A stretch of DNA of 36,900 bases from Adlercreutzia sp. ZJ473 (lineage in GTDB: Bacteria > Actinomycetota > Coriobacteriia > Coriobacteriales > Eggerthellaceae). A program made the position numbers and the translations under genes. The stretch covers positions 1-36,900 of the forward strand of contig NZ_JAAVTO010000025.1 in assembly GCF_013185065.1 (NCBI RefSeq), in the 5' to 3' direction. Below the pieces are notes generated by a model that was not told the DNA's origin, ran no database searches, and saw nothing but the letters and a program-made list of their open reading frames with translations. This document shows, one piece after another, positions 652 to 35,886 of this stretch; positions within the stretch are counted from its first letter, which is position 1; every line of letters begins with the position of its first letter.

Positions 652-3333
652 TTAGCCCAGCTCGGCGATCTGCTCCGCCAGGCGCGCAAGCTTGTCGCTC
701 AGCTCGGCGAGCTTGGCGCGGTCCTTCTCGATGATCTCGGGGGCCGCCTTCGCCAGGAAGCCCGGGTTCGAGAGCTTCTTCTCGAGCTTGGCCGCGTCCT
801 TGGAGAGCTTGCCCTGCTCGCGCGTCATGCGGGCGCGCTCCGCCTCGAAGTCGACGTGGCCGGCGAGGCAGGTGTACACCTCGAGGCCCGCGCCGAGCGC
901 CACGGAGGACTCCGCGGGCTTCGCCACGTCCTCGCCCACCTCGAGCGAGCTCACGTTCGCGAGCGAGGTCACGAGCGCCGCCTGCGCCTCGAGCAGCGCC
1001 GCGTCGTCCGCCGACGCCTTCACCGCCACGTCGAGCGCCACCTTCGGCGAGATCCCGTAGCGCGAGCGCGCCGAGCGGATGGAGCCCACCACCTCGCACA
1101 CCATGGCGATGGCGCGCTCGGCCTGCGGGTCGCGGTAGCGCACGAGCTTCTCGGCGTCAGGCCACTCCGCGCCGATCAGAAGCTCGCCCTCGGCGCGTCC
1201 CGGCATTTGGCCGAACAGCTCCTCGGTCACGAACGGCATGATGGGGTGCAGAAGGCGCAGCACCTGGTCGAGCACGTAGACGAGGTTGCGCTGGCAGGCC
1301 AGGCGGTCGGCCGGGTCAGCCGACGCGCCGAGGCGCGCCTTCGAGAACTCGATGTACCAGTCGCAGAACTCGTTCCAGACGAAGCCGTAGAGGGCGCGCG
1401 TGAGCTCGCCGAACTCATACGCGTCGAACGCCGCGTCCACGTCGGCCACGAGCGCCGCCAGACGCGAGAAGATCCACTGGTCGGCGGGCGTGGCGAGCTC
1501 GGGCTCGCCCGGCTCAAAGCCGTCGAGGTGCATGAGCACGAAGCGCGCGGCGTTGCGGATCTTGTTCGCGAAGTTGCGCGAGCTCTCGATCTTCTGGTAG
1601 TCGAAGCGCATGGCCTGCGCGCCCGTGACCTGCAGAAGCAGCCCGAAGCGCATACCGTCGGCGCCGTAGTCCTCCATGAGCTTCACCGGGTCCACGCCGT
1701 TGCCGCGGCTCTTGCTCATGGGCTTGCCGTCGGCGCCCATGACCGTCGGGTGGATGATGACGTCCTTGAAGGGGATCTCGCCCGTGCAGTACATGGACGA
1801 CATCACCATGCGCGCCACCCACAGGCCCATGATGTCGCGCGCGGTGGAGAGCACCTGCGTCGGGTAGTGCGCGGCCAGCTCGGGCGCGTCCATGCCCGCG
1901 TCGGCCCAGCCCTGCGTGGCGAAGGGCCACAGCTGGCTCGAGAACCACGTGTCGAGCACGTCCTCGTCCTGGCGAACCTCAGCACCGCACTCGGGGCAGG
2001 CGTCCACGCCGTCGACGCGCGCGTCCTGCCAGCCGCAGGCGTCGCAGTAGTACATGGGGATCTGGTGGCCCCACCACAGCTGGCGCGAGATGCACCAGTC
2101 CTTGAGGTTGGCCAGCCAGTCGAGGTAGACCTGCTTCCAGCGCTCGGGGTGGAACGTGACCTGGCCGTTCTCCACCACCTCGGCGGCGCGCCTCTTCAGG
2201 CCGTCAACGGCCACGAACCACTGCTCCGACAGCCACGGCTCGAGCGTGTTGTGGCAGCGGTAGCAGTGCATGACGGAGTGGTCGTGGTCCTCCACGTGGT
2301 CGAGCAGGCCGAGCTCGTCGAACGCGGCCACCACGGCCTCGCGCGCCTCGTCGCGGCTCATGCCGGAGAACTTCCCGAAGCCCTCCACCACGTGCGCCGT
2401 CTCGTCGAAGATGTTGATCTTGGGCAGGCCCGCGCGCTCGCCCATGGCGAAGTCGTTGGGGTCGTGCGCCGGCGTGACCTTCACGCAGCCCGTGCCGAAG
2501 GAGGCGTCCACGTAGAAGTCGGCGAACACGGGGATCTCGCGGTCCACGAGCGGCAGGCGCACCTTCGCGCCCGATGCCACGAGGCCCTTGTAGCGCTCGT
2601 CGGAGGGGTTCACCGCCACGCCCGTGTCGCCGAGCATGGTCTCGGGGCGCGTGGTGGCCACCACGATGTGCTCGACGCCGTCGACGGGCTCCACGAGCGG
2701 GTAGCGCAGATGCCACAGGTGCCCGGCCTCGTCCTCGTACTCGGCCTCGTCGTCGGCGATGGCCGTGGTGCAGTGCGGGCACCAGTTCACGATGCGCTTG
2801 CCGCGGTACACGATGCCGTCATGGTACCAGTCGCAGAACACCTGGCGCACGGCGCGCGAGAACTCAGGGCTCATGGTGAACTGCTCGTCGGCGTAGTCGC
2901 ACGAGCATCCCATGGCGGCGATCTGGCTCACGATGCGCCCGCCGTAGTCGCGGCGCCACTCCTGGCACGCCTCGATGAACGCCTCGCGCCCGATCTCGCG
3001 GCGGTTGATGCCCTGCTCGGCGAGGTGCTTGTCCACCTTGGTCTGCGTGGCGATGCCCGCGTGGTCGGTGCCGAGGATCCAGCGCGTCTGGTAGCCGCGC
3101 ATGCGCGCGCGGCGGATGCAGGCGTCCTGGATGGTGTCGTTGAGGGCATGGCCCATGTGCAGCACGCCCGTGACGTTCGGCGGCGGGATGACGATGGTGT
3201 ACGAGTCGTCCTTGTGCGCGCCGAAGCCCGGCGTGCGCTGGAAGTACCCCGCGTCGCGCCACGCCTCGAACAGCGGCCGCTCGTGCGCCGCGAAATCGTA
3301 GTCGATCTTCTTCTCCTGCGTGTTGTCTGCCAT
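652..3333 (-). CDS. valS: Valyl-tRNA synthetase
   Basis: Class I aminoacyl-tRNA synthetase that charges tRNA-Val in the cytoplasm; 893 residues, a normal size. The HIGH-type motif is HMGH (residues 59-62, within PPNVTGVLHMGHALN) and the KMSKS motif is KPMSKS (about 537-542). A large editing (CP1) insertion lies between them with the CxxC zinc-finger-like pairs typical of the family. After the anticodon-binding domain the last 65 residues form the basic/acidic coiled-coil arm characteristic of ValRS. The ATG at 3333 was chosen because GAGAAGAAGG lies just upstream and the protein then starts MADNTQEKK; an earlier in-frame start at 3354 adds only a poor basic leader. The gene starts 82 bases after the clpX stop on the same strand and has no clear promoter, so it may be read from the clpX transcript. 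Confidence 0.97.
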   Translation of the reverse strand: MADNTQEKKIDYDFAAHERPLFEAWRDAGYFQRTPGFGAHKDDSYTIVIPPPNVTGVLHMGHALNDTIQDACIRRARMRGYQTRWILGTDHAGIATQTKVDKHLAEQGINRREIGREAFIEACQEWRRDYGGRIVSQIAAMGCSCDYADEQFTMSPEFSRAVRQVFCDWYHDGIVYRGKRIVNWCPHCTTAIADDEAEYEDEAGHLWHLRYPLVEPVDGVEHIVVATTRPETMLGDTGVAVNPSDERYKGLVASGAKVRLPLVDREIPVFADFYVDASFGTGCVKVTPAHDPNDFAMGERAGLPKINIFDETAHVVEGFGKFSGMSRDEAREAVVAAFDELGLLDHVEDHDHSVMHCYRCHNTLEPWLSEQWFVAVDGLKRRAAEVVENGQVTFHPERWKQVYLDWLANLKDWCISRQLWWGHQIPMYYCDACGWQDARVDGVDACPECGAEVRQDEDVLDTWFSSQLWPFATQGWADAGMDAPELAAHYPTQVLSTARDIMGLWVARMVMSSMYCTGEIPFKDVIIHPTVMGADGKPMSKSRGNGVDPVKLMEDYGADGMRFGLLLQVTGAQAMRFDYQKIESSRNFANKIRNAARFVLMHLDGFEPGEPELATPADQWIFSRLAALVADVDAAFDAYEFGELTRALYGFVWNEFCDWYIEFSKARLGASADPADRLACQRNLVYVLDQVLRLLHPIMPFVTEELFGQMPGRAEGELLIGAEWPDAEKLVRYRDPQAERAIAMVCEVVGSIRSARSRYGISPKVALDVAVKASADDAALLEAQAALVTSLANVSSLEVGEDVAKPAESSVALGAGLEVYTCLAGHVDFEAERARMTREQGKLSKDAAKLEKKLSNPGFLAKAAPEIIEKDRAKLAELSDKLARLAEQIAELG

Positions 3334-19730: not shown

Positions 19731-19907
19731 GCGATCTTCCTTTCTATGAAGGGCGCCCTATGGGCATAGCTTCGCCATTATGGGCGCAAAGATTCAGCAA
19801 ATTAGGATACACCTCCCAGCGCCCAAGTTCAAGGCCCATCCCGCGTGCGGTAAGAAACAGACGCCGTCCAAGCATCCAGATGCTCAGCCAGATCGACCGC
19901 TTCGCGG

Positions 19908-19913
19908 TATAAT
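19908..19913 (+). promoter_or_regulatory. -10 element of the DUF3791/DUF3990 cassette
   Basis: Perfect TATAAT about 54 bases upstream of the first start codon; no convincing -35. The 236-base gap 19731-19966 also must hold the divergent rpoD promoter, for which CATAAT at 19782-19777 (minus) is only a weak candidate. Confidence 0.5.
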
Positions 19914-19966
19914 GCTCGCTAGGTTTCCACGTCATGCCAGAGCGAAGCCGAAGGGAGGCGATATCC

Positions 19967-20179
19967 GTGCTCGACGAGGTGCTCTTCATGCAAGCTCGCC
20001 TTTTCCGCATGTTCCGCGAGCAATGCCAGCTATCGCCCTCGCAAGCGAACGAGATCTTTGAGCAGCAGGGCATCTGGCGCTTCATAGAGGAATGCTACGA
20101 TTACCTCCACCTCGAAGGTGACGAGGCCGTGCTCTCCGACATCTTCCGCAAGCTCTCCGCGCAAGGAGTGGCGCTATGA
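19967..20179 (+). CDS. DUF3791-like small protein, first gene of three-gene cassette
   Basis: 70 residues starting at GTG 19967, chosen because GGGAGG lies eight bases upstream; an in-frame ATG at 19934 has no such site. All-helical and acidic, with the layout of DUF3791 proteins: an N-terminal helix, LSPSQANEIFEQQGIWRFIEE, then CYDYLHLEGDEAVLSDI and a C-terminal helix. DUF3791 genes commonly sit just upstream of DUF3990 genes. Its stop overlaps the next start by four bases (ATGA), so the two are translationally coupled. By position and size it could be an antitoxin or immunity partner; this is inference. Confidence 0.8.
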   Translation: MLDEVLFMQARLFRMFREQCQLSPSQANEIFEQQGIWRFIEECYDYLHLEGDEAVLSDIFRKLSAQGVAL

Positions 20180-20751
20180 GGCTCTCAGACGGCATGATCC
20201 TCTACCACGGAAGCTACGCGCCCGTGCGTCACGTTGATCTCTCAAGATGCGCGACCGGCAAGGACTTCGGCCGCGGCTTTTACCTGACCTCAGACGAGCT
20301 GCAAGCCCGTCGGTTCATTCGGACCTCGCTGCGAAAGGCGCAAGGGCTGGGCACGGCGCCGCGCGAGCAAGGCTTCGGGTTCGTGTCCTCCTTTCAATTC
20401 AAGAAACCTGACAGCCCCTTATTCGTACGCCAGTTCCCCGAAGCTGATGCCTCATGGCTTTGGTTCGTCGCTTCTAACAGGCGGGCAGCCCTCGCCGAAG
20501 CGCTTGCTGGCAAGCTGGACCCCTCGCTCGACAGCGCAGACGTGATCATCGGCAAAGTCGCGAACGACGCCACCAATCCCGTAATCACCACGTACCTGAA
20601 CGGCCTATACGGTCCGATCGACGAACCCGGCTCATCCGAGATCGCCATCAAGCTCCTGCTCCCGAGCCAACTCAAAGACCAGTACTGCTTCCGCACGGAG
20701 CGTGCCGTCAAATGCCTTGAGCCCCTTGAGGTGACCCGCTTTGAAGCCTGA
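20176..20751 (+). CDS. DUF3990 protein, possible ADP-ribosyltransferase-fold toxin
   Basis: 191 residues. DUF3990 features in order: ILYHGSYAPV (7-16), TGKDFGRGFYLTSD (27-40), SWLWFVASNR (93-102), DVIIGKVANDATNPVITTY (122-140) and QYCFRTERAVKCL (169-181). The HG next to the first strand, the GxGFYLTxD strand and a late Q/F/TE motif look like the HYE-type layout of ADP-ribosyltransferases (inference from motif order). It sits between two small acidic proteins with overlapping starts, as in a toxin-antitoxin or abortive-infection unit. Base composition is less GC-extreme than the flanking rpoD. Target unknown. Confidence 0.82.
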   Translation: MRLSDGMILYHGSYAPVRHVDLSRCATGKDFGRGFYLTSDELQARRFIRTSLRKAQGLGTAPREQGFGFVSSFQFKKPDSPLFVRQFPEADASWLWFVASNRRAALAEALAGKLDPSLDSADVIIGKVANDATNPVITTYLNGLYGPIDEPGSSEIAIKLLLPSQLKDQYCFRTERAVKCLEPLEVTRFEA

Positions 20752-20947
20752 CATCATGGCGCAGTGCGCCGACCTCATCTTCGCAGATGCCGTGCAAGAC
20801 CTCGCCCGAGGCACGGGCAAGCCCCTTGAGGAGGTGCGAGCCGCCGCCCTTCTATCCCCCGCCTACGAAGTGCTCTACGACTTTGACACAGGTCTCTGGC
20901 AGGAGGGCCCCGACTTCTTCGCATCGCTGATCGACCTCGATGCGTAG
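20741..20947 (+). CDS. Small acidic protein, third gene of the DUF3990 cassette
   Basis: 68 residues beginning at TTG 20741, which has GAGGTGA six bases upstream inside the DUF3990 gene; an ATG at 20756 lacks a ribosome site. It overlaps the DUF3990 stop by 11 bases. It starts with a helix MAQCADLIFADAVQDLA and has a conserved-looking tail AYEVLYDFDTGLWQEGPDF. I know no named function. Tight overlap with the DUF3990 gene suggests it acts with it. Confidence 0.72.
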   Translation: MKPDIMAQCADLIFADAVQDLARGTGKPLEEVRAAALLSPAYEVLYDFDTGLWQEGPDFFASLIDLDA

Positions 20948-21190
20948 GATCCGAGCCAAAAGGTCTCTTCGGCACCCTTTCGAAGGATCCAGCTCTGGGC
21001 GTAGCGTGTTCGCGCGGTCATCTCACTTGCGACTAGGTCCTTCGGCTCCGCGCCCTGCGGACGCTCCGCTCAAGATGGCAGAGGATGGCCCCTGGAAGAC
21101 CGGAGCGAGAGAGACGCACCCGAGCCTTTCGGCTGCCTGGCAACGCGGCGCAGCGGGCAACAGGGGACCGCGTGCAGAATTTCGGCGTGA
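20948..21190. other. Intergenic stretch without a recognisable gene
   Basis: First part of the 451-base gap between the DUF3990 cassette and the next gene. A 132-codon open frame crosses it but has no ribosome site and no protein-like composition. No clear terminator is seen. The second half of the gap is the inverted-repeat element listed separately. Confidence 0.5.
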
Positions 21191-21369
21191 TTTTGGCAGA
21201 AATCTTCAGATGTTTGTCTCCTTCGTGTCCTCAAACGGGCCTTTGCAGCGACAGTGCATCCTTCATCAAAACTCGACCTGGGGTTTTGTCGGCCCCAGAG
21301 CGCATGAGCCGATAAAATGGCAGTTGCTGGGAGCTTGAGAGGGCAAACATCTGAAGATTTCTGGCAAAA
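21191..21369. repeat. 179-bp element with 26-bp terminal inverted repeats
   Basis: The left arm 21191-21216 starts TTTTGGCAGAAATCTTCAG and ends ATGTTTG. The right arm 21344-21369 is its reverse complement with one mismatch (25 of 26). The 127-base interior has a smaller CTGGGG/CCCCAG helix. No target-site duplication was recognised. Could be a MITE-like element, a REP-type structure or a long RNA hairpin. Confidence 0.75.
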
Positions 21370-21398
21370 CGACCCGTGAAAAATGCAAGGAGCTTCCT

Positions 21399-21623
21399 AT
21401 GAGCAAGAAAAGGCAGATGACCCCCTCGCAGAAGGCGGCGGCGCGCTGGGACGAGGACGAGCGCCCCGCGTCGGGAAGCTCGAAGAGGGCGAAAGGCGCC
21501 CAGCCCACGCCGTCTGACAACGCCTCGCCGTTCAGCCTGCAGAACGTGGTGATCCCGCTCATCCTCATGGGCGCCGCCACCGCCTTCGGATTCCTCATGC
21601 TGGGGAGGCAAGGCTTGCTCTAG
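21399..21623 (+). CDS. Small single-span membrane protein, unknown function
   Basis: 74 residues from ATG 21399, with a good AAGGAG six bases upstream. The first 45 residues are hydrophilic and basic (MSKKRQMTPSQKAAARW), followed by one hydrophobic helix (about 49-68, VVIPLILMGAATAFGFLML) close to the C-terminus. This is a tail-anchored layout, with the N-terminus probably cytoplasmic. No family recognised. The neighbouring MFS gene converges on it. Confidence 0.7.
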   Translation: MSKKRQMTPSQKAAARWDEDERPASGSSKRAKGAQPTPSDNASPFSLQNVVIPLILMGAATAFGFLMLGRQGLL

Positions 21624-21725
21624 CGAGGCGCGGGGACGCAGGAGACGCGTCATGCGAGCCGGCCGTGCGACCCAGAGCGCCCAAGAAAGACGTCCGCACT
21701 CCTTCCCGCCCGGCTTGCCGTTGGG

Positions 21726-22913
21726 CTATCGGATCAGGCGGTAGTAGATCGTCGTCGCGAATGCGATGAGCGCGCAGGCCACGTACATCGCCTCGTAGCC
21801 GCAGCCTAACACCAGAAACCCCAGGACGAACGGCCCGAGCCCGCACCCTGCGTCGCACAGGATGAAGAACGTGGACACCGTGAGCGAGGTGCTCGAGCTC
21901 GTCGAGATCTTCACGGCGGCAGCCTGCCCTACGGACATGCACGTTCCGAATCCGGTGGCCATGAACACGCCGCACGCCAAAAGCGAGAGGGGGTCTCGCG
22001 CAAACGCAACCAAGATCAAGCCGGCCCCCATCGAGGCGATCGACGGATAGAGGATGACATCTTCCCCGTACCGGTCCATCAGCTTGCCCGTCACCGGCCG
22101 GATCAGCAGCAGCACCGCCGCATAGACCAAAAACACGAACGGAGCGAAGAGCCCCAAGCCAAGCTCATCGGCATAGCTTTCAACGAACGCATTTATCGAT
22201 GAGTACGCGAACGCGATGAGAAACATGAAGAACGAGAACTTCACCGTGGAGGAGTCTACGATCGGAGCCTTCCTTGCGCGGATCGAAGCGATCGACCTCC
22301 CCTTTGCAGCCGCCGGCTCGCGATACGTCCGCAGCAGAACCAGCGAGAGCGCCGACAGCACGAGGCAGATCGAGAAGAGGACGCTGTAGTCTATTCCAAC
22401 TACGATCAAGACCGACATCAGGGGGCCTATGCCGATCCCCAGCGTATTCGACAGCATGAAGTAGCCTGTGCCCTCACCGAGGCGCCCGGCAGGAAGCCCG
22501 TCTATCGCCAGCGCAGGCACGACCGTGTTGGCAACCCCGAAAGCCACGCCATGCAAGAGACGCACGGCCAGAAGGAACGATATCCCCACGAACTCCATGA
22601 AGTAGAGGGCCACCGCCACGGTCTGCAACGCGAGAAAAGCCAAGCCGATCTGCCTCAGCGAGAACCTGCATTCCAATCGAACGCACACCACGCGCCCCGC
22701 TATGCCCCCGACGAGGAAGACAGATGCGGTGAGGCCGGCAAGCGCGGGGTCCACGCCGTACAGGGTTGCTGCGTGAAGGGCCATGGTCGTCATGAGGAGG
22801 AAGTAGATGACCACGAGAGACAGGTTGCATGCAAACAGTCTGACGAAGCCGGACGTGAAGATGGAGCTGCTCTTTACGCGCCCGTTTGCGTACCCGTTTG
22901 CGTGCCCGTCCAT
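21726..22913 (-). CDS. Major facilitator superfamily transporter
   Basis: 395 residues, 12 predicted spans in two six-helix halves separated by a basic loop (about 200-225, including GRSIASIRARKAP). The inter-helix 2-3 region contains GGIAGRVVCVRLECRF, a variant of MFS motif A, and the second half has RPVTGKLMDRYGED, a clear motif A copy. Substrate is unknown; drug or metabolite efflux is the usual role for MFS genes beside TetR regulators. The ATG at 22913 has GAAGGGG upstream. It lies 177 bases downstream of a TetR-like gene on the same strand, with a strong palindrome between them. Confidence 0.88.
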   Translation of the reverse strand: MDGHANGYANGRVKSSSIFTSGFVRLFACNLSLVVIYFLLMTTMALHAATLYGVDPALAGLTASVFLVGGIAGRVVCVRLECRFSLRQIGLAFLALQTVAVALYFMEFVGISFLLAVRLLHGVAFGVANTVVPALAIDGLPAGRLGEGTGYFMLSNTLGIGIGPLMSVLIVVGIDYSVLFSICLVLSALSLVLLRTYREPAAAKGRSIASIRARKAPIVDSSTVKFSFFMFLIAFAYSSINAFVESYADELGLGLFAPFVFLVYAAVLLLIRPVTGKLMDRYGEDVILYPSIASMGAGLILVAFARDPLSLLACGVFMATGFGTCMSVGQAAAVKISTSSSTSLTVSTFFILCDAGCGLGPFVLGFLVLGCGYEAMYVACALIAFATTIYYRLIR

Positions 22914-23029
22914 GTGCTTTCCCCTTCAGAAGAGGCTTGACCCAAGCTGCGAGGAGCGCCGAGAGCAACCGGGCGCATTCTCGCTCGTTTTGCACAGCCT
23001 AGCAAACCGGAGGCGGCGAAGCGAAAAGT

Positions 23030-23056
23030 CTGGACGATAGGCGCCCTATCGTCCAG
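23030..23056. promoter_or_regulatory. 27-bp palindrome between the TetR-like gene and the MFS gene
   Basis: CTGGACGATAGG, three central bases, CCTATCGTCCAG: perfect 12-bp arms. TTTTT lies nearby on the plus side and ACTTTTC on the minus side, so it could be an intrinsic terminator for the regulator gene. Its length and symmetry also fit a TetR operator for the MFS gene. Confidence 0.7.
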
Positions 23057-23090
23057 CGAGTTTTTCGAGCGCAGGCGATCTGATCCGTCC

Positions 23091-23729
23091 TCATGAGCTC
23101 GTGCGATATAGCGAATCCCTGATCAGCTCGATGTATGCCTCGTAGACGTCGTGGAAGTGGCTGTAGAACGTCGACCTGCTGACGGACGCAGCCTTTGCGA
23201 CCTCGTTGACTGACACCTGGTCGAGTGGCTTTTCCGCGAGCACGCTGCCCAGGGCAAGCTTGATCGACGTCTTGGTGTCAGCGTCTTCATTGACCGCAGC
23301 CCTGCCCTCCCCGCCCGGTTCCTGCGCGGCGAAGAGGCGAAGCCCCGAGATCGCGCTGAACGCCCTGAGGACTTCCATCTCGTCCCTTTCCTGCGGCTGC
23401 TCGAACCACCATCGTATGGTTCGCGCGAAAGAGCCTGCGAGGTGCTGGGCGTAGAGGGAGTCTATCCTGCTCGGAAGCGCCCTCATACCGCGGCTTATGC
23501 GACAGGCGAAGAAAACGCCCGATTCCCTCTCGAAGGCATCCCAGAAAGCGCGATCCGACCCCTTCGCCCGCTCGAGGATGATGGCGCGCGACTCGTTCAA
23601 GTTGCGAATCACTTGGAGAAGGCGCGTGGCAAAGTCGGTCGTCGCGATGGGCTTTCCATCGGCTCCCCTTGGCCGAAACAGGTCCTTGCAAAGGTCCTGC
23701 AACTGGGCTGAGCGATCATTCGAAGGCAT
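23091..23729 (-). CDS. TetR-like regulator with C-terminal helix-turn-helix
   Basis: 212 residues from ATG 23729, chosen because AAAGGA lies seven bases upstream; earlier in-frame starts (23789 ATG, 23822 TTG) have weak sites. The domain order is reversed. Residues about 35-130 look like a TetR ligand-binding/dimerisation domain: LLQVIRNLNESRAIILERA, then QHLAGSFARTIRWWFEQP. The TetR DNA-binding helix-turn-helix comes last (about 152-206): VNEVAKAASVSRSTFYSHF. No helix-turn-helix is found before residue 35 or in the upstream frame. It probably regulates the downstream MFS gene. Either a circular permutation or a remnant of a fused TetR pair. Confidence 0.82.
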   Translation of the reverse strand: MPSNDRSAQLQDLCKDLFRPRGADGKPIATTDFATRLLQVIRNLNESRAIILERAKGSDRAFWDAFERESGVFFACRISRGMRALPSRIDSLYAQHLAGSFARTIRWWFEQPQERDEMEVLRAFSAISGLRLFAAQEPGGEGRAAVNEDADTKTSIKLALGSVLAEKPLDQVSVNEVAKAASVSRSTFYSHFHDVYEAYIELIRDSLYRTSS

Positions 23730-23846
23730 TCTCGTCCTTTGCTCGCGTTTCAAAGAGGAATCGTTGGCGATTTCCCCCTCGTCATCCATTCTACTCTTGC
23801 CTGACGACGGCGGAAGCGTCAAGCGGGGCGAGCCTTTGCCCTGCCC

Positions 23847-26309
23847 TCAGAGCAGGTCGTGGCAGTCGACGTCGACCGCCACGTTCACCTCGCGGTCGGC
23901 CTTGCGGGCGCGGAACAGGCGCGTGAGCACGGAGGCGAGGTCGTCCTCGCGCGGGCACTTCACCACCACGTGCCAGCGGTAGGTGCCGCGCAGCTTCGAC
24001 AGCACGCAGGGGCTGGCGGGCAGCACCTGCCAGCGCTCCCCCGCCACGTTGAACACGAGCTTCGCCAGCTCGGCGTGCAGCTCCTCGGCCACGCGCCTGA
24101 CCGCGGCCTCGTCTTTGCCCCACATGAGCACGTTGGCCATGCGCACGTAGGGCGGGTACCCCAGCACGCGCCGCTTCGGCAGCTCGGCGCGCAGGAAGAG
24201 CGCGCGGTCGTACGTGGCCGCGGCGCGGATGGCGACCGAGGACGCCTCGTAGGTCTGCACGAGCACGCGCCCGGGCAGATCCGCCCGGCCCGCGCGGCCC
24301 GCCACCTGCTCGATGAGGGCGAACGTGCGCTCGCCCGCGCGGTAGTCGGGCAGGTGCAGCTGCGTGTCGGCGTTGATCACGCCCACGAGCGTCACGTCGT
24401 CGAAGTCGAGCCCCTTCGCGATCATCTGCGTGCCGAGGAGCACCGCCGCGCCCGCGCCCGCGAACTGGTCGAGCAGGCGCTGGTGCGCGCCCTTCGCGCG
24501 CGTGGTGTCGGCGTCCATGCGGATGACGGGCACGCCCGGCCCCACGCCCGGCGCGTCGTCGAGCAGCGCGCGCAGCTCGGCCTCCACGCGCTGCGTGCCC
24601 GCGCCGAACTTCTTGAGGTACGGGCTTTGGCACGCGGGGCACGTGGGCGGCGCGGGCGCGGCGTAGCCGCAGTGGTGGCACACGAGCTTCGCGCCCTGCT
24701 CGTGGTACGTGAGCGACGTCGCGCAGTTCGGGCACTCGGGCACGAACCCGCAGTCGCGGCACAGCAGGAACTTCGCGAACCCGCGCTGGTTCAGCAGAAG
24801 CACCGCCTTGCGGCCCGCGCGCAGCTCGTCTGCGAGCGCCTGGGCGAGGCGGCGCGAGAACATGGAGCGCGAGCCGGAGTGGAACTCGGCCGCCATGTCG
24901 ATCACCTCGACGGCGGGAAGCGGGCGCCCGTTCGCGCGCGCGGGAAGCGACACCTGCGTCCAGCGCTCGTCGGTGGCCGCCGCGTGCAGCGCCTCGATGG
25001 AGGGCGTGGCCGAGCCGAGCACGAGCGCGCCGCCCGAGCGCCGCACCATCCACGCCGCCACGTCGCGCGCCACGTAGCGCGGGGCGCTGTCCTGCTTGTA
25101 GGAGCCCTCGTGCTCCTCGTCGATCACGATGAGCCCCACGTCGGCCAGCGGCGTGAACAGCGCGCTGCGGGCGCCCACCACCACGCGCGCCTGGCCGCTT
25201 CGGATGAAGTCCCACTGGTCGAAGCGCTCGCCCTGGCTCATGCGCGAGTGCATGACGGCCACGGCGTCGCCGAAGCGCCCGCGGAAGCGCGCCACCGTCT
25301 GCGGCGTGAGCGAGATCTCGGGCACGAGCACGATGGCGTTGCGCCCCTCAAGCAGCACCGCCTCGATGGCCTGCAGGTACACCTCGGTCTTGCCCGAGCC
25401 CGTCACGCCGTCGACGAGCACCACCTCGCCGCGGGCTGCCGCGCGCGCGTCCTCGACGGCCCGCAGCGCCGACGCCTGCCCCTCGGTGAGATGCGGCTTC
25501 GCCGACGGCGCGAAGCCGGGCTGGGCGGGTCCGGCTGCGGCGGGTCCACCTACGGCGCCCGCGCGGCCGGCGGACGCCCTGTCAGCGCCCGCGAAGCCGC
25601 GCATGCGGCGGCGGCGCTCGACGCGCACGACGCCCTTCTCCTCGAGCGCGCGCACGGCCGCGGACACGCTGCCGAACTCGAGGGAGAGCTCGGCCATGCG
25701 CACGTCGCCGCGGCGCACGGCCTCGATGACCTGCGCCTGCTTGACGGCGTTCCTGCGCGGGACGAAGCCCTCGGCAGCCGGGCCGAGCGTCACCCAGCGG
25801 TCGTCGACCTCGCCGACCGTCGGCTGCTCGAGCCGCCAGCTCCCGTCGCGCCCGTGCACGAGGCGCGGCACGCCGCCAGGCGGCGTGAACAGGCGCACGC
25901 ACGCCGAGAGCGGCGCCACGTAGCGCGCGGCCAGAAACTGCGCGCAGGCCGCGCCCTCCTCGTCGAAGAAGGGGGCGGTGAGCACGCGCTCGATCGGCTT
26001 GAGCTTGGCGGCGCGGTCGCGCGCGAAGCCCGCCTGGGGGCTGGGCGCCTCGTACTGGGCGCCGAACCCGAAGTGCGCCTCGAAGGGCGCCTGCGCGGCG
26101 GATGCGGGAGGCGCGCCGCCTGCGGCATGCGCGGCAGCCTCCTCGGATTCGCGCACGCCGACCACGAACCCCACCGCGCGGCGCCGCCCGAACGGCACGA
26201 GGACCGCGCAGCCCACCTCGACGTCTCCCGACGCCTCGGTGACCGCGTAGGTGTAGGGCGCGTCAAGCGCCTGCGTGGGAATGTCCAGGATGACCGAAGC
26301 GAGTTTCAT
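23847..26309 (-). CDS. priA: Primosomal protein N' (replication restart helicase PriA)
   Basis: Superfamily 2 DNA helicase that recognises stalled forks and starts replisome reloading. 820 residues, longer than the 732 of E. coli because of Ala/Gly-rich insertions. The N-terminal DNA-binding domain begins ASVILDIPTQALDAPYTY. Walker A is GVTGSGKT (301-308), the DEEH box is near 397, and the zinc-binding cysteines are CRDCGFVPECPNC plus CHHCGY and CPAC. Late motifs include GTQMIAKGLDF and QVAGRAGR. The ATG at 26309 has no ribosome site but lies eight bases from a TATACT, suggesting a nearly leaderless mRNA. The hybrid kinase gene ends 54 bases upstream. Confidence 0.96.
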   Translation of the reverse strand: MKLASVILDIPTQALDAPYTYAVTEASGDVEVGCAVLVPFGRRRAVGFVVGVRESEEAAAHAAGGAPPASAAQAPFEAHFGFGAQYEAPSPQAGFARDRAAKLKPIERVLTAPFFDEEGAACAQFLAARYVAPLSACVRLFTPPGGVPRLVHGRDGSWRLEQPTVGEVDDRWVTLGPAAEGFVPRRNAVKQAQVIEAVRRGDVRMAELSLEFGSVSAAVRALEEKGVVRVERRRRMRGFAGADRASAGRAGAVGGPAAAGPAQPGFAPSAKPHLTEGQASALRAVEDARAAARGEVVLVDGVTGSGKTEVYLQAIEAVLLEGRNAIVLVPEISLTPQTVARFRGRFGDAVAVMHSRMSQGERFDQWDFIRSGQARVVVGARSALFTPLADVGLIVIDEEHEGSYKQDSAPRYVARDVAAWMVRRSGGALVLGSATPSIEALHAAATDERWTQVSLPARANGRPLPAVEVIDMAAEFHSGSRSMFSRRLAQALADELRAGRKAVLLLNQRGFAKFLLCRDCGFVPECPNCATSLTYHEQGAKLVCHHCGYAAPAPPTCPACQSPYLKKFGAGTQRVEAELRALLDDAPGVGPGVPVIRMDADTTRAKGAHQRLLDQFAGAGAAVLLGTQMIAKGLDFDDVTLVGVINADTQLHLPDYRAGERTFALIEQVAGRAGRADLPGRVLVQTYEASSVAIRAAATYDRALFLRAELPKRRVLGYPPYVRMANVLMWGKDEAAVRRVAEELHAELAKLVFNVAGERWQVLPASPCVLSKLRGTYRWHVVVKCPREDDLASVLTRLFRARKADREVNVAVDVDCHDLL

Positions 26310-30324: not shown

Positions 30325-30948
30325 ATGGCACTGACAAGCACCAACCTGGAAGCCGCGCCGCCGCAGAAGGTCGACCGGCGCATCATCAAGACGCGGAAGG
30401 CCATCCGCCAGGCGTTCCTGAAGCTGCTCTCCGAGAAGGGGCTCGGCAAGATCACCGTGAGCGCGCTCGCCCGCGAGGCCGACATCGACCGCAAGACGTT
30501 CTACCTCCACTTCTCCTCCATCGACGACCTCATCGAGCAGGAGGCCAACGTGCTCGTGGAGAAGGTGGCGCGCGCGCTTTCGCGGCCCGCCGCCGCGGAC
30601 GCGGGCGACGCGCCGTCGCTCAGCATGAAGCGCGTGCTCGTGGAGCTCGCGGCGGTGGTCGAGGAGGACGCCGTGCTCTACCAGCACGTGATCTCGTCGC
30701 TGTCCATCGACCAGATGGTCGAGGCGCTCAAGGAGCCCGTCCGCAAGGCCGTGCTCGCCAACGCCGCCGACCGCGACGCCATCGACGAGCAGGGGCTCGA
30801 CTACCTGCTGCGCTTCTACATCGCGGGCACGCTGTCGGTGTTCGTCCACTGGTTCACGGGCGACCGCAGCCGCCCCATCGAGCAGGTGGTCGACATCGTG
30901 GACCAGGCCACCCGAAGCCACGGCATCGAGACGATATCGAGGTTCTAG
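30325..30948 (+). CDS. TetR/AcrR family transcriptional regulator
   Basis: 207 residues with the usual domain order. N-terminal helix-turn-helix about 20-66: ITVSALAREADIDRKTFYLHF. The C-terminal part (about 75-207) is a TetR ligand-binding domain of the small-molecule-sensing type, ending YIAGTLSVFVHWFTGDRS. ATG 30325 follows AAAGAGGAG. It is divergent from metK and lies 150 bases upstream of the ATP-grasp gene on the same strand, so it could control itself and that operon. Ligand unknown. Confidence 0.92.
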   Translation: MALTSTNLEAAPPQKVDRRIIKTRKAIRQAFLKLLSEKGLGKITVSALAREADIDRKTFYLHFSSIDDLIEQEANVLVEKVARALSRPAAADAGDAPSLSMKRVLVELAAVVEEDAVLYQHVISSLSIDQMVEALKEPVRKAVLANAADRDAIDEQGLDYLLRFYIAGTLSVFVHWFTGDRSRPIEQVVDIVDQATRSHGIETISRF

Positions 30949-35809: not shown

Positions 35810-35835
35810 CAGCCGCAGATGCGCTTAGAGCTCAA

Positions 35836-35872
35836 GGCATGCGGCCCCAGGCAGTACCTGGGGCCGCATGCC
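35836..35872. terminator. Strong bidirectional terminator
   Basis: GGCATGCGGCCCCAGG and CCTGGGGCCGCATGCC form a perfect 16-bp stem with a CAGTA loop, followed by TTTT on the plus strand and TTGA on the minus strand. It separates the convergent yhbY and PIN genes. Confidence 0.92.
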
Positions 35873-35886
35873 TTTTGCGCGCATTC

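Follow-up and report, generated by a model that had tools for sequence, protein, structure and literature searches.

Few families of bacterial regulators are as common as TetR. The domain order of these proteins, with the helix-turn-helix (HTH) first, is regarded as invariable, since helix alpha4 joins the ligand domain to the HTH. A 36,900-nucleotide stretch of DNA (hereafter the window) from the gut bacterium Adlercreutzia sp. ZJ473, whose 2.63-Mb assembly comprises 119 contigs, carries on its minus strand, at 23091–23729, a gene for which the opposite order had been proposed. The original prediction placed a ligand-binding-like region ahead of a C-terminal HTH and saw in this either a circular permutation or the residue of a TetR-TetR fusion. 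The locus raises the questions of whether the order is truly reversed, how such a protein arose and whether it works as a regulator.

The gene encodes a protein of 212 residues, from an ATG at 23729 to a stop codon at 23091–23093, while an alternative TTG start at 23822 gives a reading of 243 residues. The ATG is the likely start, since the GC content at third codon positions (GC3) is coding-like from there onward (0.76 in the ligand part and 0.82 in the HTH) and weaker (0.65) in the 31 codons of the in-frame upstream extension; furthermore, a Shine-Dalgarno-like AAAGGA lies 5 bases upstream of it. As had been claimed, no HTH is encoded upstream of 23729, where the priA stop codon ends the same frame.

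A single TetR_N domain was identified by Pfam at residues 163–192 (E 2.2e-7, 31 bits against a cut-off of 24; residues 194–223 in the 243-residue reading). In sequence, the N-terminal 143 residues match residues 57–170 of the TetR protein 3KKC from Streptococcus agalactiae, that is, its ligand domain (E 3.6e-4), and 3KKC is the sole solved structure matched by these residues at E up to 1. When the window protein and its relatives are combined into a profile, two stretches match 3KKC, and the better one sets profile positions 155–198 on chain residues 12–55. The AlphaFold2 monomer model, of middling confidence (pLDDT 74, pTM 0.58), contains ten helices; its residues 1–133 align to TetR ligand domains with Z about 9 over 121–129 residues, a value that is not strong by itself for helical proteins, and its residues 146–212 align to TetR HTH domains. 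Since Foldseek alone gave no match to the model at E < 0.001, the fold was assigned from these second-look alignments together with the sequence match to 3KKC, and the claim as a whole is carried by that match and by the relatives described below.

The protein can thus be divided into an N-terminal TetR ligand and dimerisation domain beginning inside helix alpha4 (residues 1–133; 23331–23729, minus strand), a linker (residues 134–150; 23280–23330, minus strand) of low model confidence (pLDDT below 50 at 134–146), and a C-terminal TetR HTH with its own alpha4 (residues 151–212; 23094–23279, minus strand). The model keeps the dimerisation helices (87–110 and 117–128) and shows four C-terminal helices (148–166, 174–180, 185–191 and 195–211), and the recognition-helix motif SRSTFYSHF is intact. 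Both domains of an ordinary TetR such as 3KKC are therefore recognisable in sequence and model; however, ordinary TetRs have the HTH and then an all-helical ligand domain, whereas here the ligand domain comes first and none follows the alpha4 of the HTH. These results confirm a genuine TetR ligand domain first and a TetR HTH last, and they run against the N-terminal part folding into something unrelated to TetR. The TetR encoded at 30325 of the window has the normal order, in agreement with the contrast originally drawn between the two.

Three relatives from the Eggerthellaceae bear on the origin of this arrangement. They are double TetRs of 384–419 residues with the chain HTH1-LBD1-HTH2-LBD2, where LBD denotes the ligand domain. 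One is from Ellagibacter isourolithinifaciens (L009/L109, 385 residues) and one from a metagenome assembly (L010/L110, 419 residues), both with two TetR_N domains where the window protein has one; the third, also from a metagenome assembly (L043/L108), is 86–87% identical to L009 in both halves. The window protein aligns end to end with all three over their central LBD1-linker-HTH2 region, hence across a domain junction, and its linker coincides in position with the one between LBD1 and HTH2. Its ten modelled helices follow the order from alpha4 to the alpha4 of HTH2 in the model of L010, which is weak (pLDDT 62.5, pTM 0.39) and was used for helix order alone. The ligand domain is 31% identical to LBD1 of L009 and, measured against shuffled sequences, reaches Z values of 16–31 with LBD1, whereas those with LBD2 are about 0; the HTH gives alignment scores of 106–121 with HTH2 against 75–81 with HTH1.

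In a profile search of 396 Coriobacteriia genomes, only the three double TetRs and the window protein match both domains. The species-level genome contigs yielded no match to the window protein itself and, with the profile, the three double TetRs and nothing else; viral contigs gave no match, and a wider sample from the phylum brought nothing more. The search for homologues with this domain order, suggested at the outset, gave three proteins collinear with LBD1-HTH2 and, in the genomes sampled, no second short form. Judged by eye, the genes of L009, L043 and L010 adjoin open reading frames (ORFs) of AEC-type and/or EamA-like transporters and no major facilitator superfamily (MFS) gene, so that the neighbour of the short form differs from those of its relatives.

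Sequence comparison assigns the first and second half of each double TetR to distinct TetR lineages. A single TetR (L045) is matched by the first halves at 41–46% over about 182 residues, while first and second halves of the same proteins match each other mainly over the HTH. Because the ligand domain of the window protein matches LBD1, its HTH scores higher with HTH2 than with HTH1 and these belong to different lineages, end loss from a double TetR is favoured over permutation of one TetR. If one ordinary TetR had been duplicated and had then lost its ends, the result would be a true circular permutation with the same final domain order, and HTH-LBD-HTH-LBD proteins would be the expected intermediates. 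However, the halves of these intermediates are of different descent and the window ligand domain is unlike LBD2, which makes this course extremely improbable; the derivation of both domains from one ancestral TetR unit, as expected of a permutant, was accordingly rejected. Of the two origins first suggested, the residue of a TetR-TetR fusion is sustained by collinearity with the centre of three full fusions, whereas circular permutation fits the domain order only. Very probably, the gene is the central part of a double TetR, left after HTH1 was lost from the 5' end and LBD2 from the 3' end. The comparisons directly show homology, collinearity and which domains are present in what order; the direction from long to short form is inferred from parsimony.

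Several single TetRs match the window HTH at 47–51% identity, better than the HTH2 domains of the double TetRs do. This would suit an independent fusion, in which a TetR ligand domain was joined to an HTH from an unrelated TetR without descent from the double TetRs of the relatives. We nevertheless regard such a fusion as unlikely: the best matches of the ligand domain are the LBD1 domains of the double TetRs, the domain order and linker position are those of the double TetRs, exactly this junction is present in three species of the family, and, of the single TetRs whose HTH matches best, the placeable ones (L084, L085/L063 and L046) align with HTH2-LBD2 of L009, its second half. The case for end loss from a double TetR therefore stands, and an independent fusion keeps a small probability.

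The two ends of the gene give some indication of what was lost. The window protein reads MPSNDR and then directly SAQLQDLCKDLF, and L010 reads MARNVDR, then about 49 residues of HTH1, then DALLDELCRDLF. The pattern suggests that HTH1 was deleted in frame and the original start retained, although six residues are too few for proof. At the other end, the C-terminus falls about where LBD2 would begin. Searches for HTH1 or LBD2 remnants in the flanks of the gene returned chance-level matches alone, and the rest of the assembly contains no pieces closely resembling the HTH1 or LBD2 of the relatives, just ordinary TetR genes. In a single fragmented assembly, one might suspect that an error of assembly or sequencing had joined parts of a gene. 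Yet neither breakpoint resembles a collapsed repeat, the junctions are not repeats within the gene, no close HTH1 or LBD2 match exists elsewhere in the assembly, the reading frame is clean, and the surrounding variable segment is bordered on either side by synteny with the sister species G002; an artefact is accordingly very improbable. The same genome also encodes another apparently short TetR, an 83-residue ORF with little beyond a TetR-like HTH (G000:C31, L006:1438–1689(+)), and, on G000:C45, convergent TetR genes (L002:1501–2091(+) and 2368–3105(-)), one with a TetR_C_8 domain.

The gene lies in a variable segment of lower GC content (19851–23848) that carries it together with an MFS gene and that, except for 47 bp, has no match at this place in G002; both flanks are 92–94% identical to G002 and the right edge is the priA stop. 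The MFS transporter (21726–22913, minus strand; Pfam MFS_1, E 3e-37), whose ATG is preceded by GAAGGGG, is the next gene downstream and codirectional, and is a candidate target. Around the homologues of this gene on contig C32 of the same genome and in G031, inspection by eye of the ORFs up to about 1.5 kb away shows no TetR, so that these homologues do not reveal the parent locus. The segment also encodes, next to the TetR-MFS pair, a DUF3990 protein (20176–20751, plus strand; E 8e-33). Between the TetR and MFS genes, the palindrome already marked as a possible binding site (23030–23056; CTGGACGATAGG-CGC-CCTATCGTCCAG) is real: 27 bp long, with perfect 12-bp arms around a 3-bp centre, it occurs once in the genome and has no second copy there even with up to three mismatches allowed. 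A symmetric dimer might use it as an operator; T-rich stretches follow it on both strands and it scores as a terminator, so that this second role is just as likely. Elsewhere in the window, the longest short-loop hairpin is an inverted repeat at 35834–35874 with perfect 18-bp arms and a 5-bp loop (AAGGCATGCGGCCCCAGG ... CCTGGGGCCGCATGCCTT).

How might such a protein work? Two copies would pair through the LBD1 helices to form the four-helix bundle of TetR, which would leave the two C-terminal HTHs tethered to it. Such a dimer may then bind a palindromic site, perhaps 23030–23056, and repress the downstream MFS gene until a ligand in LBD1 releases it from the DNA. The intact frame, the Shine-Dalgarno-like site, the coding GC3, the intact SRSTFYSHF motif, the retained dimerisation helices, the codirectional MFS gene and the unique palindrome are all in line with function, and we consider the chances evenly balanced that the protein is at present a DNA-binding regulator. 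End-loss origin taken together with a predicted LBD1 dimer that regulates the adjacent MFS gene has, in our estimation, slightly better than even prospects.

The mycobacterial Mce3R is a double TetR of two distinct halves (PDB 9B7Y) that folds as a single-chain asymmetric TetR; its M1 half alone failed to bind DNA, both HTHs being needed (PMC11667970). L009, L043 and L010 are of this kind, sharing with it the chain HTH1-LBD1-HTH2-LBD2 of two distinct TetR units, while the window protein corresponds to the middle of such a chain, with a single LBD followed by a single HTH, the reverse of the usual order. It cannot fold as Mce3R does and must therefore dimerise to present two HTHs, or be inactive. 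Engineered single-chain TetR likewise joins two TetR units in one chain; there they are complete, as in L009, L043 and L010, and unlike the window protein it is not cut to a reversed half.

The main rival to a working regulator is a decaying remnant, in which a double TetR lost both ends and left a pseudogene whose frame is not yet broken. The gene lacks one HTH and one LBD, is the sole one of its kind in the genomes sampled and sits in a variable segment, and the behaviour of M1 alone suggests that a half-protein may not work (PMC11667970). Against decay speak the open frame with its ribosome-binding motif and coding GC3 in both domains, the lack of a frameshift at about 70% protein divergence, an HTH above the Pfam cut-off and the adjoining transporter gene and palindrome, although each of these is silent on the date of truncation. 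As the double TetRs are only about 30% identical to the window protein, too distant for a selection test or for dating the loss, decay remains a serious rival, to which we give an appreciable but clearly less than even likelihood. The full reading, that of a natural, working TetR-family repressor with its ligand domain first and its HTH last, derived from a double TetR by end loss, falls in our judgment a little short of an even chance.

While double TetRs are a known kind of protein, no published description of a TetR with a C-terminal HTH was found in the open-access literature. If the reversed form works, signalling is possible without a direct alpha4 link between ligand domain and HTH, and double TetRs are a possible route to new domain orders, a route that is directly testable, as the double TetR relatives provide the intermediate state. 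A fusion intermediate would then have given rise to a new regulator whose domains have changed places.
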